Below are positions 2,827-61,472 of a stretch of DNA of 64,000 nt, one piece after another. Every line of letters starts with the position of its first letter. Position 1 is the stretch's first letter. The notes below the pieces were generated by a model. The model did no database searches. It saw nothing but the letters and a program-made list of their open reading frames with translations, and was not told the DNA's origin. The stretch is taken from positions 39,060,486 to 39,124,485 of the forward strand of contig CM037864.1 in the NCBI GenBank assembly GCA_021292105.1, read 5' to 3'. The position numbers and the translations under genes are program-made. This DNA is from Anadara kagoshimensis. Its lineage: Eukaryota > Mollusca > Bivalvia > Arcoida > Arcidae.

Positions 2827-2848
2827 GTGGTGACAAGGTTTACTGCAA

Positions 2849-2923: not shown

Positions 2924-2933
2924 GTATGTAACG

Positions 2934-3125
2934 TTGTGTGTGTTGTGTGTGTGTGTGTGTGAGTTTGGACCCCCCTCTCTCTCTCTCTGTAAGGTTATCA
3001 TTTTCTCTCTCTCTCTCTGTGTGGGTGTGTGTGTGTGGTGTGTGAACCCCCCCCTCTCTCTCTATATATCTCATTCTATGTGAGTATGTGTTTGTGTGAC
3101 CTGTCAATTTCAAGGATCTCTGTAT

Positions 3126-3179
<54 letters not shown>

Positions 3180-3215
3180 ATCTGTATGCTCTCTCTCTCC
3201 CCTCTCTTTTTGTCT
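2934..3215. repeat. Compound TG/TC microsatellite in the 5' UTR intron
   Basis: Runs of TG and TC dinucleotides occupy most of the proposed first intron, including an uninterrupted CT tract at 3128-3175 (24 repeats). Open frames on either strand here are low-complexity artefacts. Confidence 0.9.
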
Positions 3216-3411
3216 GTGTGCAACACTGTACATTTATCCTTTCAATTGATCTGGCTCTCCGTATGTGTTTACAGAATATAAATACTATAGATACTTTAAG
3301 ATATAAATAGCTAACTGATGTAGGTCAATATGTATTTATGTGATACTATTATTAAATATCACATGATTCTATTTATTTATCTCGATTACTTGATTAGATC
3401 ATACAACAGCC

Positions 3412-6400: not shown

Positions 6401-9400
6401 TTTTCTCTTTATGCGTTGAAATTCCCCTCATAGACGTGTTGGAACACGTTTATGCGGCAACACCGCTATGTGGCGTAACAATGCACCATAGACCGTATTT
6501 AGCCAAACAACCAGACATCTATACATTGACTATTGTTTGTTTATTTATTCATTTCGTTTATATGGCACTGTATATTCCATATTTCACATTTGCACAATGT
6601 AACCAACTTAAATTTTGTGAAAATCAATTATTTTTTGCCGACATTGATTCTCATCAATGTCTGAATTATGTATATTTTATTAATATTTTAGTGAAACATG
6701 GAGCAAAAGTAGTGTTCTGTTCCAGAGGAGGTAAGCTTTTGTTAGATGAACATCTCCAATAAAGCCGCTCATGTATGTGTACTTGTAGCTTCAAACACAC
6801 TCCTTTAACTTAAGTTTACATGCCAATAAACAAAATACATGAAACATAATATACAGAAAAATATTGCAAATAAACTAAATATCTATTGCAAATTAACGAA
6901 ATAACCGCGGCGAATAAACAAAATAACTATCGCGAATACCAAAATAGGTATCGCGAATAAACAAAATACATTTCGTAAATTTTGCGATTATACGAAATTA
7001 CTATTGCAATTGTACGAGATAACTATTGCAAAATAATTATATACATGTAGCCTTTTGCCCCTTTTTTAAAACACATGTCAACTTATGGACTTCGTTAATA
7101 CCACATGCCGGTTCTCTGAAAAAATATAGACCAGACGTAAAACGGAACTAGAATTATCTTTTGACTGTCATCGTACATACGGTGTAAATAATGTTTCTAT
7201 AACTTATCTTTCAGAGGCTGAAGGGAAAGCGCTGGAGGAAGAGGTCAACAAACAAGGCCCAGGAGAAGCGTTCTTTGTCAAATGTGATGTTACTAAAGAA
7301 TCGGATATAAAGGTGTGGCTATACATAAAACTTAATAACAGTTTAGACTTGGAAGGGAAATGGACATGGCAAGCTGCAGACTAGACCTAACGACCGCGTT
7401 TGCTTTTCCATTAGTGATTTTATGTCGCAGTAACGCGTTTTTCACTTTTATCGAGGCGATGAGTTCTAGCATCGTGGTGCCCCCGAGAAACCGAATTTAA
7501 AAAAAACTTACAGTCAACACGTCGATAATAATATGAGTTATCAAGAAAATGCCACAATAAAGCACATATATTAAGAAATTGACTTGTGGCAAACGTATAC
7601 TAAAACGAACCACTAATACTAAACAATCTATAGTACATTAATTTAAACAAAGGTTATGTTCTTGCTGTTTATCGTTCATATATATCTGTTTTAGAATGTT
7701 GTTGACAAGACAGTAGAAAAGTATGGTCGAATTGATTGTTTGATAAATAATGCAGGATATCGTAAGTTTTATGATGCTCACATTGATCGATCTCTAGGGA
7801 ATTTGCTCAGGTGAGCTATGCCATGCTCCTTCGTCCGTTGTCCTTTGTCTGTCAAATTTTTATTGTTATACGTGTTCTCCAAAACAAGTAAACCTATGAC
7901 ATAGAAACTTGACATGGATTATCAAAATAGACCATCAAATATAGTATCAGAGCATGATTGGCTACCTATGTGTGCAAAGCAGGTTGTCCTTGCTCTTCAT
8001 TCGAGGCAAGATTGTAATCTCCGGACATTTGACAGGCACGTTCCCTACCTGATGTTAGAGCTATTTCGTAATAGCTGGAAGTTGGTTACCATTGGCCTTC
8101 ATTTTAGACCTTAAATATAAAACAATTAAGCGTCTTATTATAAACCGAAATGTCTATAAGCTTGAAATTCAATAAAGCGCCAGCATGTGAATCCAATGTT
8201 TCCAAGCTGTTTGAAAGTGACAGCTACTTTAAAAAGTAAAAACATGTATCTCCTTACTGTCATGAACCAAAATACAATGGTTTCTAAAACCTTGTATAAA
8301 TCGGCAGGACATGAAACTCTTAAAATTTCACTATTTTACTTTAAGCGCATTACAGACATCTTGAATAAAAGAATCATTTAACCATTGACTTTAATTTCAG
8401 ATCCACCTCGTAAGACCATAGATGAGTTTAGTGCCGACGATTTCAGAAATTTGCTAAATATGAATTTGGTCAACTATTTTCTTTTTTCAAAGGTAAAATG
8501 CAATGTTTGTGAATTGCATTGATATACTAGTAATATAAATAACTAAATAATATGAATTATGAAAAAAATATAAATTCTTAAATTTATAAATAATATAAAT
8601 GACAACATAGTTTGACATGACACAGCGTGCAAAATACAATTCGGTATGCTACTTTGCATTACTTTCTAGTATGTCACAAATGCCTTTTAATAGTGATTAA
8701 ATTATTTTAATTACATATTTTATTTTGAACAGCTGATGGTTGAAACTCTAGTTTTTAATTTGCTGTATTATCAATTTTATTGTTTTGTTCATTTCACAAA
8801 AAGCCAATATACGTTATTTTCTAAAATGTAATAGACGAGGAGATGTATCGATATTTAGACATTAAATAGCAATTCTTTACCACGATGAGTCCCAAAATAT
8901 TCACGCTATTATTTTTATCTTGTTTCTACTGTGAGAGATTTTCGAAATAATCTTGATCATCTATTATACATGTATAGTATCATGCTTAAATATATCGTTG
9001 TGTTTACAGTATGCAATGCCACATCTAAGGAAGACACAGGGTAACATTATCAACGATTCTAGTCTTGTTGCACAAATCGGACAGGAAGGGGCTGTTACCT
9101 ATGTTGCTACAAAGGTAATATTATAATTAACAATGTTGTTTACAATGTAAACACAGCCATATTATTGAAATCGGTACTCGTAGTGAGCTTGAAATAAAAG
9201 ATAGACCGATTCTTCCAGCTTAAAACTCATATTATATATATGGTGTCATATAAACATAAAATAAAAATAATGTGTACAATCAGTATAAAATATATGACAA
9301 CCAGCCTTAAAAGACTTATGAGCTACTCTTTTAACTAGACATAGATACACCTGTTAAATGTAAAGATATCTACATGAATACCAATATTTAGACTTGTACC

Positions 9401-28745: not shown

Positions 28746-31700
28746 ATGGCTAATTTTGAGGATCAACTTTCGATGCATGATGAGCCCTCAGCTCAAGAAA
28801 TGGAGGAAATGATGTCACAGAAAGCACATGAACTTTTTGAGTTGTGCGACAAAGAACAAAAAGGTTTTATAACAAAGCGTGATATGCAGAGACTTCAGTC
28901 GGAACTGCCATTGTCTCCAGAACAACTTGAGGCTGTGTTTGATTCCCTGGATGATGATAGAAATGGATTTTTAACATTAGAGGAATTCACAGGTGGCTTT
29001 GGTAAGTAAACTGAACACTCTCTAATCTCAATACATGTACATATATATATATATGTATTTGATTCCCTGGATAATGAGAGAAATGGGTTTTTAACATTAG
29101 AGGAATTTACAGGTGGCTTTGGTAAGTAAACTGAACACTCTCTAATCTCAATACATGTACATATATATATGTATTTGATTCCCTGGATAATGAGAGAAAT
29201 GGGTTTTTAACATTAGAGGAATTAACAGGTGGCTTTAGTAAGTAAACTGAACACTCTCTTATCTCAATATATGGTTATATGTTTCCTTGGATGATAATAA
29301 ATGCATTTTAATATTAAAGTAATTTACAGGTGGCTTTAGTAAGTAAACTGAATGCCTAATCTCAATACATATATATATGTGTTTGATTTCTTGGATAATG
29401 ATAGAAATGGGTTTTAACATTAGAGGAATTAACAGGTGGCTTTAGTAAGTAAACTGAACACTCTCTTATCTCAATAATTGAGCCATATATTTTTTCTTTC
29501 CAATTATACTAAGGGAGACAACTCAGTAATAAATTCATATTTGACAGATTTTATAGATGGTAGCCTTTTGTAGACCTTCCTTTACAAATTTAGGTAGTTT
29601 TCTGGGTTTGAATCCATCAGAAGGTGTACATGAAGAAGACCAAGGGGAGGGCAATGTTTATGAAGAACAAGATGATGCTGTTGAAGAGGACAGGCAGTTC
29701 CATCAGATGATGTCTAATCTGGGAGCTACACACTTGTTTGATGAGTAAGTAAATGTTATAGATGCATATTTTTATTATTATATAAATGTAAACTATTGTA
29801 CAAATCACTATGTTTATGACAGTGAATTAAGCTTTATTCCCACAGAAAATACTTTAAACTTGAATAAAGTTTGATATTGTGTTTACTTACTTATGCCTAG
29901 TCGTAACTAAAACTCTGTATGCGCATCTGAGATTGCCATGAGGTATTTCTGTAGAAAGGAAAATGTTGGCGCTATGGGGATTTTACATGGTGTAAATGAT
30001 GATGTTTACACAGGAAGTGATGTCCTTGGTGCTGTTTTACATCATATGCACAGCAAGATCCGGCATTTGCCTGCTTTTTTAACATATTAAATCCCCAATG
30101 TTTTACTCTGTGCAGAAATATTCTATGCTAATCACAGATGTGCATACAGATTTTCTGTTACGTTTAGGTACAAATAAGTGAAAAATATCAATCTTTATTC
30201 AAGTTTATTTGATTTTCTATGAAAATAATTCCTAAATCGCTGTCACAAAAACAGTGATTCAGACAGTAATTATGAATTTGACAATGCTGTTATCATGAGA
30301 GTTCACATAGAAATGCAACATTTAAAAATAAAATTGTCTTTATCATCATTAGGATTGAGGCATACGACCTTTTTAGCTCACCTGAGCCGAAAGGCTCAGA
30401 TGAGCTATTGCTATCTATCACCATCCGTCGTCCGTCGTTCGTCGTCCGCCGTGCGTAAACTTTACATTTTAATCTTCTCCTCCAAAACTACTGAGCCAAA
30501 TTTGATGAAACTTGGTGATTATTATGCCTGGGTAACAGGCTTTCAAAATTGTGTTCGGGGTTTGACCACGCCCAACAATATGGCTGCCGTTACTATAAAT
30601 AGCCAAAAGACAAAAAAATCTTCTTCTCTGAAACCAAAAGGTGCAGGCAAATTTTGATTGGATATTTGGATTCAGGATACCTAGATACACTAAAATTGTG
30701 TTTTTTCATGAAAATTGGACGAAAAATAGGTTACACGTTTTTTGCGTAAAATTATGTAATTTTTAAAATGAGACATTTATTGTTATAACTTCATAATGGC
30801 TGAAGAGAATTGTATGGAGTTTTCACTGTTGATCTTGTCTTGCGACTTTCTTCCGATTGATGTCAAGGTCAAAGGTCAAGGTCATGTCCCAGTTTTTGAC
30901 CTTTGATAAAAAATGCTAATTTTTAAACATTTCTGGTGATAATGATGTAGGATTTTTGGTTAATTGTAGGTATTGACATGACGATCATTTTGATATATTG
31001 ATTAAGTTCATGGGTTCAAAGGTCAAGGTCACAGATGTACAAGTTTACCAAAATAGTTAATTATCTGCAAAACTATGAACTTTTTGTATAAGCATGTATA
31101 TTAGAATATTGTAGGTAATGGCCCAATGGTCATTTTGATATATAAATAAAGGTCATGAGTTCAAAGGTCAAGGTCACAGATGTAAACAAGTACTGAAATG
31201 ATTATTTATCTCTAAAACTGTAGACTTTTTGTATAGGCATGTATATTAGAATATTGTAGGTAATGACCCAATGGTCATTTTGATATATGAATAAAGGTCA
31301 TGAGTTCAAAGGTCAAGGTCACAGATGTAAACAAGTACTGAAATGGTTATTTATCTCAAAAACTATAGACTTTTTGTATAGGCATGTATATTAGAATATT
31401 TAGGTATTATCCTAACTATCATTTTGATATATGAATGAAGGTCATGGGTTCAAAGGTCAAGGTCACAGATGTGAATGAATACCTGAATGGTTAATTATCT
31501 TGAAAACTGTTCACTTTTTGTATATGCATGTATATTAGAATATTGTAGGTATTAGCCTAACAACCATTTTGATATATGAATGAAGGTTATGGGTTCAAAG
31601 GTCAAGGTCACAGATGTGAACAAGTTCTGAAATGATTATTTATCTCAAAAACTATAAACCTTTTGTATAGGCATGTATATAAGAATATTTATGTATTATC

Positions 31701-34700
31701 CTAATGATCATTTTGATATATGAATGAAGGTCATGGGTTCAAAGGTCAAGGTTACAGATGCGAATGAATACCTAAATGGTTAATTATCTTAAAAACTATT
31801 AACTTTTTGTATAGGCATGTATATTAGAACATTGTTGGTACTGGCACAGTGGTCATTTTGATATATGAATGAAGAGCATGGGTTCAAATGTCAAGATCAC
31901 AGATACAAACAAGTACTGAGATGATTATTTATCTCAAAAACTATAAACTTTTTGTATAGGGATGTATATTAGAATATTGACCGAATTATCATTTTGATAT
32001 TTGAATGAAGCTCATGGGTTCAAAGATCACAGGTGAGCGTTAAGGCCCATGGGCCTCTTGTTTTCAATCAAACAACTAAATAAACAACTGTATAGAAGAG
32101 AAAATCCAGAGAATCTTGACATGTCAGTACTTTATATTCAACTTTTTTAGTTTTAGCACATGTACCAGTGTTCTGAAATTAAAATCTTGATATGTCAGAT
32201 TTCAAAGTTTTCATATCAGTAAAGTTTAAGTGCATGTACTAGTGTTTTGAAGTTTAAATCTGGATAATATGTCAGATTTTTCAGTCATTAAAAAAATGGT
32301 TTTCTTCAATTTTCACATAGTAAAGCTATTGGTGCATTCATAAATTTTATAGTGAAAATGATTCCATTTGTAACCAGGTGTTGAAATTTTGTCTTGCAGT
32401 GAAAACACCATAAAATCAGTTTGGAGTCGAATAAGACGAAATGAACCTGAAGTTGTCAGTAATTTTGAAGACTTCCTGTATAAAATTTCAAATGAAATAC
32501 GCAAATCGAAACTGGATTTTAACACACTGGAATCAGCATTAAAAAGGTAAGGTTACTTAGAGTTATCTCCCTTATATACAAGAATGAAAATCAATGGCAC
32601 ATGTATTAATATTGACAGTATTATTGTTTCTTACTTATTATGTCATAAGTTACTGGTACCACTGCGGTAGCTCAGTTGGTAGAGTACTTGCTCTGTAAGT
32701 GGGAGGTTGTGGGTTCAATCCCCCAGCTGGGTCTGACCCAAGACTTGAAGTGGGTAGTGACTGTTCTTTTGCCAAGCACTCATCATTACAGATGAAGGTC
32801 ACAGTTCTTTCAGATGGGGAACTTAAAATAAATGAGGTCCCATGTCGCGGTGGTTTGGCACAAGAAACAACCCTGCTGTATAATGCCATCAGCTCAACTC
32901 ATAAGTTACTGTAGAATTTTAATAAGAAACTGAACAAAATGCTGTAGCCAGACTTCAAACCTAGACATTCCCAATACTATTGGGATGCTTTAGATTGAGG
33001 TAATTAGCCACCTGTCGAGAATTACTCACTTCATTCCTTCCTTTCCCTTTTTGTGATGATGCAACTACAGTAAAACATGTTTATAATGAAGCCCTTTAGA
33101 CTCTTTTTAACTTCTTTATATTGTTATAAATAGACTTATATTGAGAAGCTGTCATGCCCAATATTTAACTTTCGTTCTATCTATGTATTTGGTTTAAGTG
33201 TGTGACTGGCTAAATTGAATCACATGACCAACTCAGTATCTTTTTGTACATGGCTGCGCAAACATACTGGGCCTGTGAAATTCATACTGGGTGGGTTAGA
33301 ATTACATCCCCTGTCACTAACCTAAACTTCAACCAAATCTGCGACCAAAAATAAAAGATTTGCAAAACCTACTGCTGAAGATAGTGATTTAAAATGCATA
33401 AAAGAATCATTTTGAGACATTGAAGGTCAACGAAACGGCTGCTAGACTTTGTTAGTATGCTAAACTTTAGTATCCATTTTATTTAGCTGTAGTATTTTAT
33501 TGCAGTCAGATATTTTACTTTTTATAACTTCTTTGATCGAAATCAGCAACATTTTTTAAAAAGAATTTATTTCAATAGCGCAGGGTCATCTATAAGGTAA
33601 AAAGTTAAATGTTTTGTAAATGTCTGATACGGAATGATACAGGGTCAGTAGAAAACATACGGGGTTCGGCTGCCTTATATGGTATCTTTCCTACTGACTC
33701 TGTATCATTCCGTAACAGATGCTTACATACCATGTAACTTATATTACTTTACCTTGAATTGAAACCACTAGTTTCCTAGGTAAGCTGTTGGAGTCAGAGC
33801 CCTCAAATGCAACAGATAATGGAAAAAAATTCAACCAATTAAACCTGGGACTTAATCATTGCTATGATAATTATCTTGCCATGATTGCCATAATTGGCCA
33901 GAACAGACCGTACTAGTGGGATACAACCAATTCAGCTAGTTGACAATTGGGATACTTGTCAAGTCCAGGACACCACTGTTACAACGCATTTGGTAACAAA
34001 AACGCATTTGGTAACAAAAATTTAAACAACTTCTAGAAATAAAATACACGGCATCTGAGTGTCATTCGGAGTTGTAGATATGACAAATAGTAGATATCTG
34101 ATGAGATATCACCAAAAACAAAGAGATATCCAACTTTTCCCGAAAACGCATTTGGTAACAAAAGTATGTTCGACCTGAAACGCATTTGGTAACAAAAATT
34201 TAAACAACTTCTAGAAATAAAATACACGACATCTGAGTGTCATTCGGAGTTGTAGATATGAAAATAGTAGATATCTGATGAGATATCACCAAAATTTAAC
34301 AGATATCCAACTTTTCCCGAAAACGCATTTGGTAACAAAAGTATGTTGAACGTGAAACGCATTTGGTAACAAAAATTTAAACAACTTCTAGAAATAAAAT
34401 ACACGGCATCTGAGTGTCATTCGGAGTTGTAGATATGAAAATAGTAGATATCTGATGAGATATCACCAAAATTTAACAGATATCCAACTTTTCCCGAAAA
34501 CGCATTTGGTAACAAAATATGTTGAACGTGAAACGCATTTGGTAACAAAAATTTAAACAACTTCTAGAAATAAAATACACGGCATCTGAGTGTCATTCGG
34601 AGTTGTAGATATGACAAATAGTAGATATCTGATGAGATATCACCAAAAAAAGAGATATCCAACTTTTCCCGAAAACGCATTTGGTAACAAAAGTATGTTC

Positions 34701-37700
34701 GACCTGAAACGCATTTGGTAACAAAAATTTAAACAACTTCTAGAAATAAAATACACGGCATCTGAGTGTCATTCGGAGTTGTAGATATGACAAATAGTAG
34801 ATATCTGATGAGATATCACCAAAATTTAACAGATATCCAACTTTTCCCGAAAACGCATTTGGTAACAAAAGTATGTTGAACGTGAAACGCATTTGGTAAC
34901 AAAAATTTAAACAACTTCTAGAAATAAAATACACGGCATCTGAGTGTCATTCGGAGTTGTAGATATGACAAATAGTAGATATCTGATGAGATATCACCAA
35001 AAACAAAGAGATATCCAACTTTTCCCGAAAACGCATTTGGTAACAAAAGTATGTTCGACCTGAAACGCATTTGGTAACAAAAATTTAAACAACTTCTAGA
35101 AATAAAATACACAGCATCTGAGTGTCAGTCAGAGTTGTAGATATGAAAAATAGTAGATATCTGATGAGATATCACCAAAATTTAACAGATATCCAACTTT
35201 TCCCGAAAACGCATTTGGTAACAAAAGTATGTTCAACGTGAAACGCATTTGGTAACAAAAATTTAAACAACTTCTAGAAATAAAATACACGGCATCTGAG
35301 TGTCATTCGGAGTTGTAGATATGACAAATAGTAGATATCTGATGAGATATCACCAAAATTTAACAGATATCCAACTTTTCCCGAAAACGCATTTGGTAAC
35401 AAAAGTATGTTGAACGTGAAACGCATTTGGTAACAAAAATTTAAACAACTTCTAGAAATAAAATACACGGCATCTGAGTGTCATTCGGAGTTGTAGATAT
35501 GACAAATAGTAGATATCTGATGAGATATCACCAAAAACAAAGAGATATCCAACTTTTCCCGAAAACGCATTTGGTAACAAAAGTATGTTGACTGAAACGC
35601 ATTTGGTAACAAAAATTTAAACAACTTCTAGAAATAAAATACACGGCATCTGAGTGTCATTCGGAGTTGTAGATATGAAAATAGTAGATATCTGATGAGA
35701 TATCACCAAAAACAAAGAGATATCCAACTTTTCCCGAAAACGCATTTGGTAACAAAAGTATGTTCGACCTGAAACGCATTTGGTAACAAAAATTTAAACA
35801 ACTTCTAGAAATAAAATACACGGCATCTGAGTGTCATTCGGAGTTGTAGATATGACAAATAGTAGATATCTGATGAGATATCACCAAAATTTAACAGATA
35901 TCCAACTTTTCCCGAAAACGCATTTGGTAACAAAAGTATGTTCGACCTGAAACGCATTTGGTAACAAAAATTTAAACAACTTCTAGAAATAAAATACACG
36001 GCATCTGAGTGTCATTCGGAGTTGTAGATATGAAAAATAGTAGATATCTGATGAGATATCACCAAAATTTAACAGATATCCAACTTTTCCCGAAAACGCA
36101 TTTGGTAACAAAAGTATGTTGAACGTGAAACGCATTTGGTAACAAAAATTTAAACAACTTCTAGAAATAAAATACACGGCATCTGAGTGTCATTCGGAGT
36201 TGTAGATATGACAAATAGTAGATATCTGATGAGATATCACCAAAATTTAACAGATATCCAACTTTTCCCGAAAACGCATTTGGTAACAAAAGTATGTTCG
36301 ACCTGAAACGCATTTGGTAACAAAAATTTAAACAACTTCTAGAAATAAAATACACGGCATCTGAGTGTCATTCGGAGTTGTAGATATGAAAATAGTAGAT
36401 ATCTGATGAGATATCACCAAAATTTAACAGATATCCAACTTTTCCCGAAAACGCATTTGGTAACAAAAGTATGTTGAACGTGAAACGCATTTGGTAACAA
36501 AAATTTAAACAACTTCTAGAAATAAAATACACAGCATCTGAGTGTCAGTCAGAGTTGTAGATATGAAAAATAGTAGATATCTGATGAGATATCACCAAAA
36601 TTTAACAGATATCCAACTTTTCCCGAAAACGCATTTGGTAACAAAAGTATGTTGAACGTGAAACGCATTTGGTAACAAAAATTTAAACAACTTCTAGAAA
36701 TAAAATACACGGCATCTGAGTGTCATTCGGAGTTGTAGATATGACAAATAGTAGATATCTGATGAGATATCACCAAAATTTAACAGATATCCAACTTTTC
36801 CCGAAAACGCATTTGGTAACAAAAGTATGTTGAACGTGAAACGCATTTGGTAACAAAAATTTAAACAACTTCTAGAAATAAAATACACAGTATCTGAGTG
36901 TCAGTCGGAGTTAAAGATATGAGATATAGTAGATATCTGATGAGATATCATCAAAAACAAAGAGATATCAAACTTTTCCCGACTTTAACTTTTAATCCTG
37001 ACTCCATTATAGGAAACATCAAAATTGAAATAAAAGAAATCATGTCAAAATTTTTACATATAGACAAGACAGAGCAATTAAAGGCTTAAATGGCAAAGTA
37101 GGTCATGACATTGACCTTTGATCTTAGGTATATCTTCTTGCAAGCCTAGGCTTATGAAGGCCCTCAAAAAGTCTTATGACGTCATGACAGTATTGTTGAT
37201 AAGTTTGATGTCTCTGTGATCAGGATTGCCCTGGATATTTTTGACGTCTCATAGTTCCATGTTCACACACAATTTTGATTACAAGTGGCGGGTGTAGCTA
37301 GCTAAACAGAAGGTGCTTACCCTTCCGAAGCACCCGACCTCACCTCCCTGGTGGAAGTTCACGTGTCTAACCTGACTTGTCAGTTCCAAAGTTTTTACTT
37401 TGCTTCTGGATTGTTATTTGGACATGGATGAGTATGTTTGTTTTTGATTCTTTGAAATGTTCCCAATTATAAGCTAAAATGGAAACAAAAGCACACATAC
37501 CAAGCAAAGCCATTACCTTGACCCAGTTTTGAAGACATAGCAATTTTCAGCTATTCACATCTTACTTCGACCCATTTTGAAGGCCATTTCAAAAGAAAGT
37601 AAAAATTGAAACCTGATGTAAACTGTCATAATTAGAAGCCATTTTACGAAATTCACACAAAGACGTGGTACCCATTTTTCTACCGAATATTTCCAAAGGG

Positions 37701-40700
37701 TAAAACCTTCAGAGGTTAATGCAACATCATATTTTTCCATTATCGGTTACGGAGAGAAAATGATTTTGCTTCTTAGATCGCCTTGTCTTAGTTATGGTAA
37801 CCGTAGCAACACCACGAATAAATCTGAACTACACCAGCCTATATATACTTCAGAACAAATATCATTGATATCTGTTCAGTTGTTTCAGAAGAGAAGTCAA
37901 AATTGGGTGTCAAAGATGTTATTCCGATTAAATGATTAACGAAAACTTATTGAAGTCATTTGTACATTTCATTTGTATGTTGCAAAAGAACGCGCTTTTG
38001 TGTTATTTCCTTGTTGTACTGCCAAAACATTCTCTGAATCGGAAGTTTGGAAACCTTTTTAACATAATCTACATTTTTAGCTCACCTGAGCTGAAAGCTC
38101 AGATGAGCTATTGCAATGGTTCACCGTCCGTCGTCTGTCGTGCGTTAACTTTGTACATTTTAATCATCTCCTCTAAAACTACTAAGCCAAATTTGATGAA
38201 ACTTAGTGATTATGATGCCTAGGTTAAGGTCTTTCAGATTTGCACAAATAAAAGGATTGTGTCCCCTTGGGGCCCTATAAAGTGGGAAATTGTAAAATCT
38301 TTAAAAATCATCTCCTCTGAACTTACAAGAGATATAGCATAGATATTTCATGTGAAACATACTTAGGGCACCTAGTTTCAGATTTGCACAAATCATAACT
38401 GTTGAGGCCAAAATGGGGAAATGGCAAGGTACTTAAGGGGAAAATCACTAAAATTAATGTATTGGTCAATATATCTTATCTATAAACTTTTTGTATAGGC
38501 ATGTATATTGGAATATTGTAGGTATTGGCCTAACGGTCATTTTGATATATGAATAAAGGTCATAGGTTCAAAGGTCAAGGTCATAGATGCAAACGAATAT
38601 TTAAATGGTCATTATCTCAAAAACTATAAACTTTTTGTATAGGCATGTATATTGGAATATTGTAGGTATTTGGCCTAACGATCATTTTGATATATGAATA
38701 AAGGTCATAGGTTCAAAGGTCAAGGTCATAGATGCAAACGAATATTTAAATGGTCAATTATCTTAAAAACTATAAACTTTTTGTATAGGCATGTATATTG
38801 GAATATTGTAGGTATTGGCCTAACGATCATTTTGATATATGAATGAAGGTCATAGGTTCAAAGGTCAAGGTCAGAGACACGAACAAATACTTAAATGGTT
38901 AATTATCTAAAAAATTATAAACTTTTTGTATAGGCATGTATCTTAGAATATTGTAGGTATGTTTTAGCTGTTTATAAATAACATATTGTAGCTAGACTTT
39001 AGATATGTTATATATAGCATACTTATATAATAATTATTATAATTAATTTGCAAAAATACTTGCATATTATTTGCCCTTACTGCTGAAAATTTTGATATTC
39101 TCTTTTATTAATGTCATTGACCATTGGACCTCTGCATAAGATATGTACTCTGCATCAGGTGATCGTTAAGGCCCATGGGTCTCTTGTTGGTTTCTTTTAA
39201 TGCTGTTCTGTGTCCAGTTCTTTTTCTCTGTATATCGAGTAGGCAGTTATTTACGAGCTGGAATTAGTTGCCATATACATTGTATTTTCCCAATATTATT
39301 GGAAAAGCTAACTAACAGCTTTAGAAAATGATTCCAGAAAATGTTTTTTTTGTAAGACTACAAAAAAAGTCGCAGTGATATTTTGCAGATCAAGTTTAAG
39401 AAAAAGTGATGTCAATTTTGTTTAAGTACAGTCCTGGTTGACGGGCTATTGACATCACAGTCATTTTTGTACAGCGTGAACAAAGTGAACCTGTACTTTG
39501 TCATCGCTTTCTTCCAAGATATCGAGCTTCTTTGCTATGAAATTATAAGATATGAGTACACCTGGAAATAGTGCGCCTGATAAATGAGCGTGAAAGAAGT
39601 ATATCTGTTTTATCGTGAGATATGTATTCTGAGACGGGTAATGCATTTGGTTACATATGCACATTTGGAATAAATTTTCGGAATACATTTCAGAATCTAG
39701 TAAAATATTGCGACGGGATGCATCTAATAATTTCTGCAATTTGGCGAACTGATCTCATGTTTACAATAAAAAGTAGTTCGAGAAGTTTGCGTCCTACGAT
39801 GTAAAATCATAACTTTTTAAGAAATGAACATCAACGGCAGGTTGTTTAATTAATTCTTCGTGAAATCTACGGAAATTTAAATTTATTTTGAAGGTTATGA
39901 TAACGTATTTTAATGTTGAGGCAATTGTGTCATATTTTAAAATGTTTATCGATTAGATTTTACTTCGTGAAAGGGAGATAATTCGTACAGTGTTGTATGC
40001 AAATTTTATATACAGTCGTTTTACCAGTTCTGAACAGGGTTTCATATAAGCGCTGCTGCAGACGTCATCCACAAGCAGAGGAAATAAAATTTATGTGGTG
40101 TAATAATACAAATGTTTACTGATTCCAAAATATCGACACCTGTCCTCAAAAACACGTGGTAGTATGTTTTCTTGAAAAAAGCATTTCCGTGATCACGATT
40201 TGTTTACATCGTTAAACTAGGTCACCAACAATCTGTCGTACATTTAGGAAGCGGTTGAAGAAACAGCAAATTGAGAAAGTTATTTTGCGATTCCTTTAAT
40301 TGAACGGGATTGAAATTTTAGATTATTCGGTAGTAAAAATTCGGAACTGGTAAAACAACTAAATGATCCAGTTATGCATACAACCGCTAGAATGTACCCC
40401 CTCATAGCGACGGTAGGATCTGCAAAACTCTACTTTCTCTCTATCCGAAATGACAAAACGATCGGGTACAACTTTTTTAAATTTTAATTACCGATTGTCT
40501 TTTTCATATATTTATGAAATTAATTTTTTCTACCATTTAATTCAGCAATACATGGTTTGGTACATAAAAATTTGTTTCTTTTTCCAAAAAAAAACCCATC
40601 CGTCGGATTATATGCATAGATCAACGACACACACACCCCCCCCCCCCCCCCCCCCCCCCGAATTTTCGGTTATATTCTGTCTTGCCACAACACAATTTTC

Positions 40701-43124
40701 CCAACTACGCTGTACAGCAGCACGACAGTGCTATGTTTTAAGCTTATATTCAGATAAAGCTGAATAAAATGTTTAATCATTGTCCGTTAAAACTTTTGTT
40801 CAATCATACCTAATGCAGACTGGAATTAAACAATTTAACCAGTTTCCTGTTTCCTGTCTGGCAGGTTTTTTTTTAATAACATATATACAAAATATACACG
40901 ACACCCACCTACCACCTACCAGATGAGCAGGACGTTACTAGTGTTATAATCACTTTTGTTAGGGGGTTATATAAATTTTCTGAATTTATCTATAGACATA
41001 ATAACAGGCACATAGCCGGTTGTAATTTTGAACAAATCATAGTGGTATGGAAACATTGGAATGACTGTAACTTGTATATCACAGTATTATTTGTATGAAC
41101 TTTTCTTGTATATGTAATTACCCCCGAAAAGAGTAAAAGTGTGTACAACTTAATGCTTAAGTACTTTCGACAGCTTACAAGAGTAAAATTATTTACTAAT
41201 AACAAAATTATTTTCTAATTTTTGCTTATTTTTAAATAAAGTCTGAAGGTTATCAATCTTCAGTAACATTAGTTAGTATAACTGCAGGCATGGGGCGAAT
41301 TACATTGCAATGTAATGCATTACATTACAATTACTCTGACAAAAGTAGCTTTATATTACAATTACAATTACATGTATTTTGGAAAGTAATGCATTACATT
41401 ACAATTACTTTACCAAAGTAATGCATTATATTACACATTACATCTCATAAAGAATCCAAACATATAAATACGATATGTTTCGGATTCAGAATTTGAAATT
41501 GAAATTTTGGGTTCTTTTTCTATAAAGTTCTTATGTTTTGATTTTCAATTGTTGAAAACAGGAGTATATATAGTCAATAAGTGTATGTATAGATTCTTTT
41601 CGCTTTGGGTCATTCAACTGATATTTCTGCTGTTTACCAGTAGGTTTTACAAAATTTGTCAAAGTTGATTGTTCATCTATGTCAGGCTTTTTATTATCTA
41701 AATATACATTTCTGTTTTACTCTAAAAATTAAGAAGAAAAAACAGAAATGTTGTAAGGAATTTTTTCATATTATATGTTTTTATTTTTTTATTTATTTCA
41801 TTCACTGAATGTTTCTTAATTACCATTAAATCAAAACAGTAACAGGAGTTGATAGGTATACAAACTAATTAGTGGTATTGTCAGGTGTAAATTATAAACC
41901 ATACTTAACAAATAATTTCTTTAATCATTAAAGATAGGTTACTTTAATAGCATATAAAAAGGATTAAAAAAAACAATCTCTGGTAAAAATAAAATTGTTT
42001 TCATCACAGGTTATAAGTTAAAGCAAAATTACAAATTATTGTAGTTACTGAAACTTATATTTAGATATTTTGCAAATTTTGATGTGATCTTTAGACTTCA
42101 ATAGTACTAAAAACAGCATTTGCATTTTGCTTTAAAATGTATTTTTATCCTTTACATTTGTTGGAAATTCAAAATGATCTGAAGTATACTAACTTTTTGC
42201 ATTTTATATAGTTTTAGTATTAAGGTTGAATGAAATAAATCATTAGTTTGACAAATTAACAGTTAAAAGTTACAATTTTTCTAGACATCGATTTTTATAT
42301 TTATATTAGGGAAAAAAGTAGCCTGTAGGTACTTACTAGCCCTGAATTGTAATGGTAATAATATCTAACATTTAATACAGAGAAGTAATGCTATGTAATG
42401 CCATGTAATGCTTAATTACATGCATTTTTGTCTATGTAATGCATTACATTACAATTACATGTAATGCAAAAATTAAGGCATTACATTACATGCATTACTT
42501 TGAGAAATGTAATGCATTACAGGGCATTACAATTACAAATTAGCATTACCCCATGCCTGTATAACTGATATAGAAAATATATAATTACTATATGTAACTA
42601 TGATGATGGTATCATTTCATTGTAGTACAACAAAATATTGCCTACTTTCTATTTTAGCAAGAACTTAAAGTTTCAGTAAGCAGTGAGTGGTCGTTTATTG
42701 CACAATTTGATGCACCAGACACTAACCGCAACTCATACTGCAGAAACAACAAGAGGCAAAGTGTTCAAACATAATCATTTAGCAGTTTGGAGGTGTATTT
42801 ACTCGAACGATTTGACTCTTGTGGCTAACCACTTTGGGATTGATGAAAAATGAGAAACATCCCCAAAATCAATACACGGATTCGTGTGACAAACTTTCTT
42901 AACATTGCAAATAAAATTGAAAACATGTTATGGGTTTGGTTAAGAATTGGAATGGTGTTTATAAATTATCATTATTGTAATGAGAAAAGATGTTTTAGCC
43001 CTTACTAGTTCAAGATAATGTATACACGTTATGATTATGTTATCTAACCGGTTACAACAAAAATAATCTTATAAAATTATAATTTGTACATTATGTACGT
43101 CTTGAAAGAATGTTAAAAAAAAAC

Positions 43125-43170
<46 letters not shown>

Positions 43171-46100
43171 AAAGCCAATACGTAACATTTTGGGGCAGAT
43201 CGATCGAATATACATTCAAATTCTTGTTTCATTTTATATGAAACAAAAAAATTGAATATATTAACCAGATATTGGAAACATTTTTCTTTTCATGTAATTA
43301 AACAATTCACAAACCTTTCGACATGTATACATAGAATGATACAACAAATATTGCAGTAGAGTCCAAACACTGTTTCAGAACCTTTTTTATTATTATATAT
43401 ATATTGCCATTTATATTTTCTGCATCAGTCGAATGTCGATTTCTTTTTAGCCAGATTTGGTAGGTCCTGCGGAGACAGGGAAACATTACCATCAAATACA
43501 AACTTTATTATATAAAATATCCATTAGATAATGGCTTCATGTCTTAAAACAACCATCAGGGGTATTTACAGCAAATGTAATGAAACAATATTAGTGACTG
43601 CTAAGGTTGCATTTCCCTATATCTTCCTTCATAGATACGTTTGGCTCTCCAGAAAACTTCGTTTGCTAGATGAGAACGAATAGCAGGTAAAAACGCTACC
43701 ACACATAGCTGGGGACATTGAAAAGACATTGATTGCAAGAGCAAAAAGTAACATATTAGAAATGTGGAGAGGTACATGCAAAGGAGAAGTGCGGATATAA
43801 GGAGTGCTTTCAAAATTTAGATAAACACAGTAGGAAATTATTTCTTTTCATCTTTTTTTAAGCTAGATATAGGCCGTAAATAGTTTAGTTGAATTAAAAA
43901 AGTGGAATAGCGAACAAGAACGATAAAGGTCGATTGAGCTGTGGATATAATAAGAATTTCAAAAAATGTTTACTGACAAATAGAAAGAAATTAATTTAGT
44001 AAATAAAAAGGAATAACTAAAGCAAAGAAAAAATCAAAATGAGGGAGAAGATAAATGCTCTGTGAAAAAGTTAGGATAAGTAGTCTTTCTTTTTGGTGAG
44101 TTTGAAATTAGGTTGAACCAGTTGAGATCTAAATAATAGCTAATCTGAATGTCTAATGAAATTTTAATTTATATTAAGGAAATAAACCGAAATCCAGATT
44201 ACATTAACCAGTTTCTGAGTTTGTTTAAACACAATGTCAAAACACAAGGTACAAAAACTGTACAATCCTTGATATTAGAAAAAGCGACCGAAACAGAAAA
44301 CATCAAATCGTTTCGACAACCAAAGCTCAGTCATCTTAACCTTAAAAGAATTAAGAAAGAATGTTGTGTGTGTTACATGTTTAAAAATGCCTATACATCC
44401 AAATGGCTTCTAAATAGCTGACTTTTAGTCTTGTTTGTCTCAGGTTCCAGAAATTGATCTACGGGTGCATTTTGCTTTATCCTAACATGGTTATCAATTT
44501 TAAGGACAAAATTAACAGAAACTAATTGCCATCCAACATTTTTGTTACAAATGTCTTACAGGAAACAATCTGATATAATATCAACACCTCCCGCTGGTAT
44601 TCCTGGGCAGTGTATTCCATTATATATTGTACAGTGTATCTGACACTCAGATACTGTGTATTTTATTTCTAGAAGTTGTTCAAATTTTTGTTACCAAATG
44701 CGTTTCACGTTGAACATACTTTTGTTACCAAATGCGTTTTCGGGAAAAGTTGGATATCTGTTAAATTTTGGTGATATCTCATCAGATATCTACTATTTTT
44801 CATATCTACAACTCTGACTGACACTCAGATACTGTGTATTTTATTTCTAGAAGTTGTTTAAATTTTTGTTACCAAATGCGTTTCAGGTCGAACATACTTT
44901 TGTTACCAAATGCGTTTTCGGGAAAAGTTGGATATCTCTGTTTTTGGTGATATCTCATCAGATATCTACTATTTGTCATATCTACAACTCCGAATGACAC
45001 TCAGATGCCGTGTATTTTATTTCTAGAAGTTGTTTAAATTTTTGTTACCAAATGCGTTTCAGGTCGAACATACTTTTGTTACCAAATGCGTTTTCGGGAA
45101 AAGTTGGATATCTGTTATTTTGGTGATATCTCATCAGATATCTACTATTGTCATATCTACAACTCCGAATGACACTGGATGCCGTGTATTTTATTTCTAG
45201 AAGTTGTTTAAATTTTTGTTACCAAATGCGTTTCACGTTCAACATACTTTTGTTACCAAATGCGTTTTCGGGAAAAGTTGGATATCTGTTAAATTTTGGT
45301 GATATCTCATCAGATATCTACTATTTGTCATATCTACAACTCCGAATGACACTCAGATGCCGTGTATTTTATTTCTAGAAGTTGTTTAAATTTTTGTTAC
45401 CAAATGCGTTTCAGGTCGAACATACTTTTGTTACCAAATGCGTTTTCGGGAAAAGTTGGATATCTCTTTGTTTTTGGTGATATCTCATCAGATATCTACT
45501 ATTTGTCATATCTACAACTCCGAATGACACTGGATCCGTGTATTTTATTTCTAGAAGTTGTTTAAATTTTTGTTACCAAATGCGTTTCAGGTCGAACATA
45601 CTTTTGTTACCAAATGCGTTTTCGGGAAAAGTTGGATATCTCTGTTTTTGGTGATATCTCATCAGATATCTACTATTTGTCATATCTACAACTCCGAATG
45701 ACACTCAGATGCCGTGTATTTTATTTCTAGAAGTTGTTTAAATTTTTGTTACCAAATGCGTTTCAGGTCGAACATACTTTTGTTACCAAATGCGTTTTCG
45801 GGAAAAGTTGGATATCTCTTTGTTTTTGGTGATATCTCATCAGATATCTACTATTTGTCATATCTACAACTCCGAATGACACTCAGATGCCGTGTATTTT
45901 ATTTCTAGAAGTTGTTTAAATTTTTGTTACCAAATGCGTTTCACGTTGAACATACTTTTGTTACCAAATGCGTTTTCGGGAAAAGTTGGATATCTGTTAA
46001 ATTTTGGTGATATCTCATCAGATATCTACTATTTGTCATATCTACAACTCCGAATGACACTCAGATGCCGTGTATTTTATTTCTAGAAGTTGTTTAAATT

Positions 46101-49100
46101 TTTGTTACCAAATGCGTTTCAGGTCGAACATACTTTTGTTACCAAATGCGTTTTCGGGAAAAGTTGGATATCTCTTTGTTTTTGGTGATATCTCATCAGA
46201 TATCTACTATTTGTCATATCTACAACTCCGAATGACACTCAGATGCCGTGTATTTTATTTCTAGAAGTTGTTTAAATTTTTGTTACCAAATGCGTTTTTG
46301 TTACCAAATGCGTTGTAACACACCACAATGTTATACATGTACCGTACTTTTGTGATGAAATTACAAAATTCTTTTAATTTATTGTAGTTTATATATAGAG
46401 TAAATCCTCAGTAATTCAAACAATTTTTCCAAATATTTGTTTTTTCTATGAACTCAAACAAGCGAATAATAAGTTGGGAGCCAAAATTATATCATTAAAG
46501 TTACACTGATGCTTTATATGACTGTTAGTCTCTTTAATGCCATATGAAATATGCACCATTTTATGAATTAACCTACTGTTAACATGTTCATGATGTTTGT
46601 AAGATTCCCCTGTTCCCATCCACATACAAAGTGGTATATTATCAAAATTTTACAAAATGTCTACATTTAACATTGTTAGGTCTGATGCAGTTCTAAGGTT
46701 CTTTTAGATTTCTGAAGGGTGATATGTTTTAGGCTGCTGGGTCATTTTAGGCTACATTATAATGTAGGGTTTTCTAAAAATTGGTTTTCAGGGCTGACTA
46801 AAGTTTTGCCCATTTTTAGAAGCTTTTTCTTCAGATGCATCTAGCACAGTCAAAAAGATTGAAACTATATGGAGGTATATAGGATTTGTCTCCCTTTGAA
46901 TTAGTTTTCTGTATTCAAAATTGTAGCAACCTTTCTATCACCTGTTATACTGAAATTATTACTCAAAGCAGCAGTGTTTAATGAAGTTCTTATGAAGTTG
47001 TCTATGGTGTTTCAGCAGAAAAATAGCATGTCCAACTTAGTAATTATCCATGGTAACTTAGCAGACCATCAACACTGATTTCCTACAAACAAATAAGGGG
47101 TTGAGCCCAAGTGATCTAAATTGCCAACTTAAAGATTACAGTCCCTATCACCACAAAGTTTTGAAACCTGTTCGTGACTGACAATATTAAATATGAAAAC
47201 TAATTTTGTCAGTCACGAACAGGTTTTAAAACTTTGTGGCGATAAGGACTGTAATCCTTAAGTTGGCAATTAAGATCACTAACTTAAAGTAATAGGGATC
47301 ATGTGTATATCTTGTCTGTACAATGTGAACGCTAATCATAGGTAATATGTATATGTATTGACTGTGAATTCTGATGCACCCCAGATATCAGTAGACCTTC
47401 CCATGTACTAATTAATAATATCAACTATTAGATATTAAAATTAGATTGTCAACTATCAACTATAGTGTTGAGGTCTAATTTATTTTATAATACCTCCTCA
47501 CCCTTCAAACAAAGTTTAGGGGGAATATAGGAATTACCCCGTCTGTCTGTCCATCTGGTTGTCTGTTCCAATATCGTGTCCGCTCCATATCCTTCATGTC
47601 TATGGATGGATGTTTTGGCACAAGTCTAAACCAACAAGAGATGATTTGTTGCATATTTATATGCATAAGTCAACAGTCAAGGTCAGAAGGTCAAAGCTTA
47701 GTTTTTCTGTCACAATATCATGTCTGCTCCATATCTTCCATGTCTATCAATGATTTTGATCAAACATGGCACAAATGTTAACCAGCATGAGACAGTGTGT
47801 GGCATACTACATTTATGTGCATAGGTCAAAGGTCAAGGTCAGGAGGTCAAAGTTTAGTTTTTCCTCCACAATATGTTGTCCGCTCCATATCTTCCATGTC
47901 TATCCATGGATTTTGATCAAACTTGGCACAAATGTAAACCAACATGAGCGACAATCTGCTGCATACGACAATGTGTGGCATATGACAATGTGTCGTGTAC
48001 CAAATTTATGTGCATAGATCAAAGGTCAAGGTCAGGAGGTCAAATCTTAGGTTTTCTGTCAAAATATTGTGTCTGCATCATATCTTCCATGTTTATGGAT
48101 GGATTTTGATTAAACTTGTCACAAATGTAAACCAACATGAGACGATGTGTAGCATACCAAATTTATGTGCATAGGTCTAAGGTCAAGGTCAGGAGGTCAA
48201 ATCTTAGTTTTTTTGTTACAGTATCATGTCTGCTGAAATCTTACTTTTATTCTTAGTTCTTTTTAAATCTAAGAGTCATTGCTCTGAAAACAGTGACATG
48301 TATTTATGGAATTTGTTTGTCACAAGAACACAGATGGCGGGTCTACTGATGATGGGTCTACAGGGAGTATTAGTCTCCTTTAGAGACAGCTCTAGTTTAT
48401 GATTTTTACTGCAAGTATTATGAGAATTTACCCTGTTGGCCTCTTGGTTTATTTGCTTTATTAAACATGTATTGCAGTTGCATTTTCAGTATAATATCAG
48501 TCAAAACTTTTTGTTATAAATGGTTCAATATTGAAATGTTGAATATTCATTTGTATGCAAAATAATATAATAGATGTATAAATCTAAATTGATTTTAAGT
48601 TTTATTCATATGTTTTATAACATATGAGTGGTACTCAAAAGTAATAACCAGTTATTTATAAATCTGTCCTGACACATAATTACACTAAAAATGTAAGGAA
48701 TAGTTATGTCATTCACTTATTTGATTAGTAGTTCAGTGTATTTGAAGTACCTGTATGACAAAATAGTCATGAAGTTATTAACTTTCCTTTCTTTGGAAAC
48801 TATGGGCCTCTCGTGCTATAACTGGTATTGGCTCCATTCTTACTAAGGAATGGAGTGTTATTCCGATTTTCTGGTCTACATATTGTCAGCTGATCTGTAT
48901 GATATGCAGTGGTTAGTTTGTTGCATATAACCTAGTATTTCATGTGGCACCCGCAATTTTTCAGAGAAAGACTCCACCCACCCACCACACCCCGCTACAG
49001 AAATGGAGAAAAAAATAATATTAAAATTTTGATACAGAATTTAAAGGGCTGATAAGGAAGTCTTGCCATTTTTGCCTGTTTATGTTCAGATAAATTTATT

Positions 49101-54300: not shown

Positions 54301-57300
54301 CAGTAACTTTGCCACCTCATTTATATATAGCCACACTGTTTTGAAGTCAAAAATTTCATTTCTTCTATGTTTTTCTGTATATGCTAAATTGCCAAATTGT
54401 GACAGAATAATGTGATTAATTGACCTGGCCCTGGGATCACAAACAATGCTTAACTTAAGCAAAAACTTATTTTCAAAATATGAGTTTTGACTTAACTTAA
54501 AGTTAAATATTGTTCCTGATACCAAGGTACTTGTCTGTGAAAAGTTAAGTTCAAACTTAGATTTAAGTAAAATAAGTTAAGATTGCTTCCTGATCCATTT
54601 CTTTTTTTAAAGTTGTTTTAACTTTAAAGTTAAGAAAAAACTTAGATTTAAGTATAAAAACTCGCTTAAGTATTGTTCTCGATCTCAGGGCCTGGTCTTA
54701 CTGTAGAAGAATTGGTAGCAAATCAAAATCAAGACTAGATAAGTGTTCAATCCTGCATTGGAATATAAAATGTCATCTGGTGGGTGGCGCACAAACAATA
54801 TCAAAACTGGTTGCTATAAACATTCTGTTTTAGAAAAAATTGTATAAATATTTGTTGACATGTAGACATGCACGTGTCTTAATTAATGAATATAATTGAT
54901 GATTTACCTGTAAGGTAAATACTCAAGGTGAGGATATCACCGGTAATTTAACATTTACTTTCTGCAAGGACACTCATACTCTACTGGTATATCATCACTG
55001 TTGAAGAGAGAACTACCAGTACTTTGTAATTGTCCAGGTAAATCGTCTAGAACATTTTTAATTTCAGCATTTCATTTTCAATATTTAATAATGATGAGGT
55101 TTTTTTTAAATGAAAAGTATAAATAAAGCAATTGAGTTTGAATTAGAATCAACATAAAGTTCTGAGTAGCTATCATGTCCAGGATTTAAGAGATAAAAAC
55201 TAATTTAACTTTGGTTATATAGTTGCAATGTACATAAATTTCATGTCTAATATAATCTAAAAACATTTGTGTTAATAACTTATACTACAAGAGAATTTGT
55301 ATTGAACTGTCATGAAATTTTTGTCATAGAATTAAGATATTAAAACATGTTTTATGTTACACAGTATAATTGATATACCGGTACATATATAAAGCATTTT
55401 AAAACACCAGGCTGACCAATTCGACAGATTTGTACCATAAAAATGGATAAACGGATGGATTATATGACTTTTTTTTATCCCTGAACCATAGGCTCAGATG
55501 AGCTATTGCTATCTATCTTCGTTCGTCATGCGTGGTCTGTTTTGTGTCATGTGTAAACGTTTCACATTTTAATCAACTCCTCAAAAACTACAAAGCCAAA
55601 TTGGATGATATTTGGCAGTAATGATGTCTGGATGAGGGGCTTTCAGATTTGCACAAATGAAAGGATTATGTCCCCTTGGGGCCCCATAAAGGGGAAAATT
55701 GTGAAAATCTTTCAAATTATCTGCTCTGAACTTACAAGAGATAGAGCTTAGATATTTCATGTGAAACATACTTAGGGCACCTAGTTTCAGATTTGCACAA
55801 ATCCTAACTGTGGGTGCCAAAATGGGGAAATGGCAAGGTACTTAAGGGGGAAATTGCTAAAATTAATGTATTTGTCAATATATCTTGAAAACTATAAACT
55901 TTTTGTATAGGCATGTATATTAGAATATTGTAAGCATTTGCACAACAATCATTTTGATATATGAATGAAGGTCATAGGTTCAAAGGTCAAGGTCATAGTC
56001 ACGAACAGATACTTAAATGGTTAATTATCTCAAAAACTATAAACTTTTTGTATAGGCATGTATATTAGAATATTATAGGCATTTGCACAACGATCATTTT
56101 GATATATTAATGAAGGTCATAGGTTCAAAGGTCAAGGTCATAGATGCAAATGAATACTGAAATGGTTAATTATCTCAAAAACTGTAAACTTTTTGTATAG
56201 GCATGTATATTGGAATATTGTAGGTATTGCCCTAACGATCATTTTGATATATGAATGAAGGTCATAAGTTCAAAGGTCAAGGTCATAGATGCGAACGAAT
56301 ACTGAAATGGTTAATTATCTCAAAAACTATAAACTTTTTGTATACACATGTATATTAGAATATTTTAGGTATTGGCCTAATGAACATTTTGATATATAGA
56401 TGTTTTAGCTGTTTATAAATAATATATTGTAGCTAGAATTTAGATATGTTATATGTTGCATTCTTATATAATAATTATTATAATTAATTTGCAAAAATAC
56501 TTGCATATAATTGGCCCTTACTGCTGAAAATTTTCACATTCTCTTATATTGATGTCATTGACCATTGAACCTCTGCATGAGATATGTACTCAGCCTCAGG
56601 TGAGCATTAAGGCCCATGGGCCTCTTGTTTAAATTAAAAGTACTAAAAATTCAGACTTTTTATATGGAAATGTACCAAAATCAAACACTAAATGATAAAA
56701 AGTACCTAAATGATATTCTTGCAAACTAAAAATGTACCAATCTGGACAAATAAATAAATTTGATTGGTCAGTCTGTAAATGTTTCTTGGGTACCCGTAGA
56801 TGAAGCAGTATTGGATGCATGTAATTTTCAGTACATTTGTCCGAACTTATTATGTTATTGTACTTCACTTTATACAGTGAAAATGTGGCTTAAAACAAAG
56901 GTGGTGGCTAATTGTGAGGTATATTATATATAGTGTTATACTACTGGATATGTCAACATCTAATATCAAATGCCTCATTCGTGAGGGTGATTATTAAACA
57001 GCTACTTTTTAGTAAATATAATCATGACATTGTTAGTGGCTGGTTGTAACAGTTCACGACTAACATCGAAAAAGCTATAAAAAAAGGTAATATATTATAG
57101 GGTTACTGAACTGATATTAATTATTATGCTATTGTCCTGAGTTGACTCGAAATTTGCACGAGCTTGTGAGTGCAAATTTAGAGTCAACGAGGGTCTATAT
57201 TTTACTATATCAGTGTATATACACATTGCATAAAATTGCATTTGAAGCAAGACCTGTTATATAAGTCTGTTTGATAACGGTAAAATCCATTAACCAAAAA

Positions 57301-60300: not shown

Positions 60301-61472
60301 TCACAAATCTTTTAAGTCTTATGTATGACCCAACCAGGGTTCGAACCCAAGACCTCTTGCTCTTGAGGTTGACACTACTACTGAGCCACAGAGACAGTGG
60401 ACTATTGTTATAAATGACCTACTTGTTTATAAAATATAGAAACATGTCTATATCTCACCCTAGGCATAATCGTCAGAATTTATTAATAGAGATTAAGGCC
60501 CCAGTCAAGATTCTTTCACTTATATTGAGACAGTCAGTTCAGGGATGGTGAGGGAAACTGGAGAGCCAGGAGAAACTACCTTTTGTTCGGTCAATATTTT
60601 GGTATTATCTTTTTTTATCTCTCTTGATTTCTTGTTTAATGTACATTGCTCTGATAAATTGTTAATAAATATAAAAAATGTTTTATGTATATTGTAGAGC
60701 TGCCTTGAAGCTTACAGAAGGTATAGCATTAGAGAGAGAAAGCTTGGTGAAACAGTTAGACACATTGAAGTAAGTAACATGTTACATACTAAATCTATTT
60801 TCAGTGTGGACATTTTAACATAATGTTTTAGCATGTTTAATGTTCACACAACAGTTGATAAACAAAATTAAGTAAAATGAAACTTGTCAAAAATAATAAA
60901 CTAATAACTTTTAGTCATAATTTTTTGCTTCCTATCTTCAGGATTGTTTTGCAGAAGACTTATTATTAAACTTGAATGTTGGAATTTTTATTCACAGTGA
61001 AATTTTCATAAGTATTGACTACAAGCTATTTACATGTTTTATTCCTCTTGCGAATTACCACTGTGGTAGCTCAGTTGGTAGAGTGCTCGCTTCATAAGTG
61101 GGAGGTCGTTGGTTCGAACCTGACCGCGTCTGACCCAAGACTTGAAAGTTTGTAGTAACTTTTCTTTCGCCAAGCACTTGGCATTATGAAATGAAAGTCA
61201 TGGTTTTTTCAAATGTTTCAGGGTAGGTGTGGCACTCTAAAGAACCCTGCTGTATAATGCCATCAGCACAATGCACAAGCAAAATTTCTTCACTTTCGCC
61301 TATACCTGGTGACATCTCAATATAAGTGAAATATTCTTGACTAGGACATTAAACCCCATTACTCAACTCTTCTTGCAAACTTACACAAAACATTAAACAA
61401 AAGCAAATGTATCCTGATTTACCGTATTCATGCATTACAAATTGATGTTGTTCAGGTTACTGAATTTCTACT

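Follow-up and report, generated by a model that had tools for sequence, protein, structure and literature searches.

A probable family of foldback-architecture DNA transposons with inverted arrays of a 178-bp unit and an integrase-OTU gene in the bivalve Anadara kagoshimensis

The 64,000-nucleotide stretch of the Anadara kagoshimensis genome considered here (assembly GCA_021292105.1, contig CM037864.1, positions 39,060,486 to 39,124,485 of the forward strand; hereafter the window, whose own positions serve as coordinates) contains a single transposon that was inserted as a unit and is bounded on both sides by inverted arrays of a 178-bp unit (Table 1). It is very probably a non-autonomous copy belonging to a recently active family of DNA transposons of foldback architecture, the full copies of which carry a gene combining an integrase core with an OTU protease domain. 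The recency of this activity is indicated by the four 10-kb cores of the family, which differ pairwise by only 0.06-0.22%. Family loci fetched from the 1.1-Gb genome are denoted below by L-numbers.

An initial annotation of the window had described two opposed arrays of one 178-bp unit (17 and about 10 copies), sharing an exact outer end and flanked by CACCAC hexamers, and had ascribed them to a single transposition event. Tandem Repeats Finder (TRF) recovers both arrays in inverted orientation, and the outer end and both hexamers were located in the window. The terminal motif TGTTACAACGCATTTGG occurs at two places only in the window when up to two mismatches are allowed (0.04 expected), and the two arms match at 97.4% across 1,667 bp, their outermost 252 bp forming an exact inverted repeat.

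A genome-wide search for the end motif recovered 214 matches (105 forward and 109 reverse; 47 + 86 + 81 in the lists, which give every position), falling on contigs C1-C19 and C29, as against none for the reversed control. Neighbouring ends no more than 20 kb apart are convergent in 67 of 69 cases, the other two being one divergent (-+) and one same-direction (++) pair; 10,000 shuffles of the orientations gave at most 31 convergent pairs. The count of 67 pairs is positional, and their ends lie about 116 bp to 17 kb apart; 34 pairs were read as sequence (31 and the window copy, then two very short ones). Family ends begin with TGTTACAACGCATTTGGTAACA, placing TGTTA at the termini. Exact 6-bp target duplications, none extending to a seventh base, flank 28 of 32 pairs and one of the two very short pairs (29/34 altogether), and in the control comparison of left flanks with the right flanks of other copies 2 of 992 match. 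The third position of the 28 exact duplications is G in 27 and the fourth is C in 26; the insertion target is usually a palindrome near NAGCTN (AGCT-like), a clear insertion preference.

Empty sites were sought within the fetched sequence for the 28 copies with exact duplications (L037 and L039 with one flank each), and a spanning match was obtained for three. The joined flanks of L009 with a single duplication match window positions 56475-56630 at 145 of 156 bases without a gap, those of L024 match L006 at 168 of 194 bases, likewise without a gap, and the match spanning the L023 junction has gaps only away from it. These sites are paralogous: the L023 match and most of those for L009 are located in the cores of other copies. 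Convergent pairing, target duplications and paralogous empty sites together uphold the single transposition event proposed by the initial annotation, whose suggested checks had included further loci with the same ends and 6-bp duplications, which were found, and empty sites, which were obtained in the above form for three copies and not for the window site.

The divergent pair consists of two full-length copies that abut each other, with TAGCTT before, between and after both, as would fit a second insertion into the target site of the first; their cores (C1:43553293-43584527, L037-L040) lie in opposite orientations. In the same-direction pair, the left end of the copy in L030 intrudes into the right arm of the L032 copy; L030 itself lacks an exact duplication. 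As a separate observation, members of the family sit in or next to one kind of repeat containing GTTACGCTTTCCG (L006 1537-1730; flanks of L017 and L024).

Inverted arrays of 0.8-27 units occupy both ends of 29 of the 32 copies; the three exceptions are short copies, and L043 holds an additional internal array. Each unit contains two copies of an 18-bp motif, AACGCATTTGGTAACAAA, which also makes up the element termini, where it is preceded by TGTTAC; the unit consensus has the motif without this leading TGTTAC. Across 507 units (matches spanning 171 or more of the 178 positions, the motif not being demanded) the two copies are 99.3% and 99.1% identical to the consensus, compared with 95.1% for the rest of the unit, and rank 4th and 12th among the 148 18-bp windows, several of the better windows overlapping them. 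An earlier set of units had been anchored on one motif copy and was hence biased for motif conservation; in motif-anchored units the mean distance is 3.4% within an arm, 3.6% to the other arm and 4.5% to other elements, so that units of one element are only weakly homogenised and a strong effect was rejected. The initial annotation had also raised free tandem satellites as an alternative. Exact unit motifs number 1,057 genome-wide, and the 100 listed, all on C1, lie in element ends or up to about 3.5 kb inward of them, no free array of the unit being found among these places.

Cores were compared for 29 of the 32 copies (the short L011, L018 and L022 being left out), 26 of them in groups. Differences within the 3.2-kb core group amount to 0-0.59%, and the cores of L013 and L024 are free of mismatches across 3,210 aligned bases, with two gap runs. 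When both cores are oriented alike, the arms nevertheless comprise 3.8/10.9 units in L013 and 13.7/3.9 in L024. Thus, array length shifts faster than the core mutates. Unit order was compared in 16 of the 32 copies, with counts of substitution-free units in matching order taken over the shorter arms. These are 2/3 on each side for L013/L024, 2/10 and 0/4 for L037/L039 (cores 0.08% apart) and 5/16 and 2/9 for the window copy and L035 (0.30%). Among 280 units of the 16 copies the nearest unit lies in another copy for 170.5, in the same arm for 71 and in the other arm for 38.5.

As the units are without the leading TGTTAC, they would probably act as binding or recruiting sites rather than cutting sites, a reading that we favour with some reserve. 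The TGTTAC might then mark the cut, with the AACGCATTTGGTAACAAA copies constituting repeated transposase-binding sites. A less probable but substantial competitor holds that unequal exchange within inverted ends produced the arrays as functionless by-products and that only the outer 20-60 bp matter. Consistent with this, there are copies of only 116, 131 and 310 bp, of which two (including that of 116 bp) have exact duplications, and near-identical cores differ widely in array length. However, functionless arrays do not readily account for the presence of the terminal motif twice per unit, among its most conserved stretches, or for the roughly 9 to 27 units per arm borne by all four 10-kb cores.

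The 10-kb cores of L037, L039, L045 and L047 contain one long frame, intact in the first two and broken in the others, and an identical 1,003-residue protein is encoded at three loci. Pfam recovers an integrase core (rve) at E 5e-15 and an OTU protease domain at E 2e-9; the integrase residues D144, D207 and E242 and the OTU motifs GDGSC and DHY are present, and the Protein Data Bank (PDB) matches are mostly to retroviral integrases, OTU domain-containing protein 5 also being among them. An F-box at the C-terminus was considered and dropped (11.7 bits, below the cut-off and not listed in the relatives scanned). Two further frames of the 10-kb core, 117 and 86 aa long, match nothing in Pfam, and no polymerase was seen. 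Scoring 46 of 1,531 integrase candidates gave at least 55 matches, a lower bound. Among these listed matches, 31 of 33 at 57% identity or above lie within 12.5 kb inward of an exact end, a strip that comprises about 0.24% of the genome, as against none of the 22 below that line in elements with these ends; the line was set after viewing the list, and several matches can belong to one copy.

Among the matches listed for ten query cores, the window core, which lacks the integrase-OTU gene, aligns with the 10-kb core except at about 1560-5650, the gene stretch, and 6244-7080, and the 3.7-kb cores retain 4885-5868 of the 10-kb core, including the last part of the gene, joined to the sequence that follows. 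Given these unlike endpoints, a gene native to the element, with the partial copies as internal deletions, appears to fit better than one nested insertion. The converse, that an unknown transposase moves the foldback carrier, some copies of which harbour the integrase gene as a nested Ginger-type element, would be compatible with most copies being without the gene, but seems improbable in the face of the linkage of the closer matches to these ends, of partial gene copies that stop at unlike points and continue into shared core, and of the TG..CA ends and palindromic 6-bp target, which fit an integrase.

More diverged integrase-plus-OTU genes occur at L049, L050 and L051 (32-52% identity among the matches listed), with tandem arrays of 53 and 151 bp downstream of the gene in L051; no inverted-end pair could be made out in the 6.4-6.5 kb retrieved around each locus. 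A 451-aa frame that by eye resembles a piggyBac transposase lies at core positions 1989-3341 of the family member obtained by joining L033 to L034.

The family combines the inverted tandem-repeat ends of foldback elements, varying between ends and copies, with the fixed termini, target duplication and empty sites expected of DDE-type DNA transposons with terminal inverted repeats. The rve domain, the D, D, E residues and the linkage of the gene to the ends place it with the Ginger superfamily in the broad sense. Within that assemblage, the TGTTA termini agree with the TGTNR of Ginger1, as does the C-terminal OTU domain (OTU or Ulp1 in Ginger1). However, the duplication is of 6 bp rather than 4-bp CCGG/CCGT, no pattern match to the HHCC zinc finger upstream of the core and no CxxC is found in P0001, L049 or L050, and the same sequences lack a literal GP[YF], a diverged GPY/F still being possible. 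Membership of Ginger1 was rejected on these three features. The 4-5-bp duplication, AT-rich RTATAY target and H2C2 finger of Ginger2/TDD are likewise absent; the 6-bp duplication and lack of an HHCC motif that characterize GingerRoot/IS3EU are both found. The FB, Tetris and Tm1 elements (Mutator) have 8-10-bp duplications and a Mutator-type transposase, as opposed to 6 bp and an integrase, and Pfam gives rve, OTU and weaker matches but not the THAP transposase of Galileo (P). Hence, the likeness to FoldBack and Galileo drawn by the initial annotation holds for the architecture, and membership of either is excluded by the enzyme and the duplication length.

Polinton/Maverick elements encode a polymerase and other genes beside their integrase. 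A reduced element of this kind, which would share the 6-bp duplication and the absence of an HHCC motif described for Polinton in the accessible text of PMC10045372, is marginally less probable still than a nested gene, as the 10-kb core has a single long frame, the two extra frames are without a Pfam match and no polymerase is in evidence. Two independent opposed satellites or a local assembly inversion, for which nothing speaks beyond the general difficulty of assembling arrays, can be dismissed, because neither would yield 67 convergent pairs, exact duplications at 29 of the 34 pairs read, and empty sites.

Several observations weigh against the interpretation preferred here, namely a recently active foldback family moved by its own integrase. 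As many as 80 of the 214 ends have no partner within 20 kb, and of these few were read, those in L005 and L007 bearing about two degraded units. Exact duplications are missing in 4 of 32 pairs and in L053 (one mismatch), and the window duplication CACCAC is without the usual G-C centre; the empty site of the window copy was not found, its joined flanks matching only themselves. Two integrase matches of 61% identity have no exact end nearby. The exchange of units is only partly supported, as the shortest arms of L013 and L024 have in-order matches in two of three units, and the array differences may in part be assembly error. Finally, the very short copies of 116 and 131 bp may imply that the arrays are unneeded, or they may have lost them later.

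Taking these points into account, we consider it highly probable, as a joint proposition, that the integrase would bind the terminal motif, pair both ends, cut at the terminal TG/CA and insert through staggered 6-bp cuts, by analogy with retroviral-type integrases. Array length would be altered rapidly, probably through unequal recombination or gap repair, with units perhaps exchanged among arms and copies. A bolder and rather doubtful extension is that, in a retroviral-type integrase lineage, the enzyme's own binding site evolved into satellite-sized arrays, which are rebuilt by inter-copy exchange around each move, leaving the array and the core to evolve separately as modules. If so, each end of a full copy would present dozens of sites, given two per unit and arms of up to about 27 units; the family would naturally give rise to new satellite DNA and would offer a system for measuring how movement depends on the number of integrase sites.

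The element probably lies within an intron of a host gene, as an EF-hand exon is found upstream of it and candidate coiled-coil exons occur on the same + strand near 58269 and 59882 (by residue composition); this agrees with the calcium-sensor gene of the initial annotation. The multi-kilobase RNA hairpin which that annotation proposed for the transcribed intron may be compatible with the complementarity of the two arms. The best match of the EF-hand exon among solved structures is EFCAB4B (also called CRACR2A; PDB 6psd, E 2e-21). Tandem 104-116-bp units at 28934-29476 repeat part of this exon including the splice-donor side, and are possibly extra or alternative exons. A 145-bp repeat forms three arrays in the window (30963-32034, 38480-38960 and 55881-56397), one of them within the element core. 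The element nested in the core has ends CAGGCATGGGG ... CCCCATGCCTG, and from these and the duplication length it is presumably a hAT. A tRNA-like match at 61066-61125 (36 bits) may be a tRNA-derived short element.

Table 1. Features of the element and its surroundings in window coordinates
Feature	Positions	Strand	Basis
EF-hand exon of host gene (EFCAB4B-like), upstream of element	28746..29006	+	structure-database match
Left target-site duplication CACCAC	33971..33976		directly outside left end
Whole element, 12,344 bp, probable non-autonomous family member	33977..46320		ends and flanking duplications
Left terminal motif TGTTACAACGCATTTGG	33977..33993	+	motif match
Left array, 16.8 units of 178 bp	34000..36982	+	TRF
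Core, 7,658 bp, without integrase gene; closest among matches listed: L035, L012, L030	36983..44640		core comparison
Core segment missing from L035	39469..40732		core comparison
Nested hAT-like element, 8-bp duplication TATAACTG	41285..42559		empty site in L030
Right array, 9.4 units, inverted	44641..46297	-	TRF
Right terminal motif	46304..46320	-	motif match
Right target-site duplication CACCAC	46321..46326		directly outside right end

The family unites a known architecture, the foldback, with an enzyme lineage for which none is described in the literature searched; judged by titles and the beginnings of abstracts, the open-access literature covered yielded no foldback or array-ended element of Ginger type. 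Foldback elements are mostly of the Mutator type, with exceptions such as the P-type Galileo, according to the accessible text of PMC4079207. The retroviral-like integrase would be a third enzyme type paired with this architecture, and here the coding copies themselves bear the arrays. This would support the view that array ends recur since extra binding sites aid movement. Moreover, as the 10-kb cores have hardly diverged while their arrays differ in length, the family allows the formation and change of satellite-like arrays to be followed directly.

Among the systems compared, Tetris of Drosophila virilis shares the foldback architecture and the variability of copies, but, in the part of PMC4079207 available, it has 8-10-bp duplications, a suggested Mutator affiliation and no transposase-coding copy found, in contrast to the 6-bp duplication and coding copies of the present family; its repeats also form kb-size free arrays, of which there are none here among the 100 listed unit places. 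Tm1 (Mutator/Foldback, root-knot nematodes) likewise has variable tandem repeats in its inverted ends and both coding and non-coding members, but differs in its repeats of about 14 bp, 9-bp duplication and Phantom-like transposase (accessible text of PMC3169594). Galileo (P superfamily) resembles the family in its long inverted ends with tandem repeats, variable length and chimeric copies. As far as PMC3688188 and PMC3573991 are accessible, it has a P-type THAP transposase, ends of about 0.3-1.2 kb and two or three internal repeats (F subfamily), as opposed to an integrase and up to about 27 units per arm. According to the same sources, the THAP domain of the Galileo transposase binds additional sites within the end repeats; by analogy, this supports the reading of the present arrays as putative binding sites.

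On the side of the enzyme, Ginger1 has a retroviral-type integrase, a C-terminal OTU domain in several families and TGTNR termini, but is distinguished in the available text of PMC2836005 by the 4-bp CCGG/CCGT duplication, the HHCC and GPY/F motifs, inverted ends of 40-270 bp and proteins of 500-800 aa, where the present family has a 6-bp AGCT-like site, inverted arrays of up to several kb and 1,003 aa. GingerRoot/IS3EU elements come close in their usual 6-bp duplication, absence of HHCC and, occasionally in GingerRoot, TG..CA ends; they differ in having mostly TA..TA ends, and neither array ends nor an OTU domain are mentioned in the portion of PMC10045372 available. In oysters, the label DNA/Ginger1 has been given to the satellite CgiSat41 (1,736 bp) and DNA/IS3EU to CgiSat35 and CgiSat47 (accessible text of PMC8268682), so an association of such transposons with tandem repeats is not new for bivalves. 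This likeness of bivalve tandem repeats associated with integrase-type transposons is by label rather than by sequence, and inverted arrays at transposon ends, which are not described in that text, are the feature by which the Anadara family stands apart.

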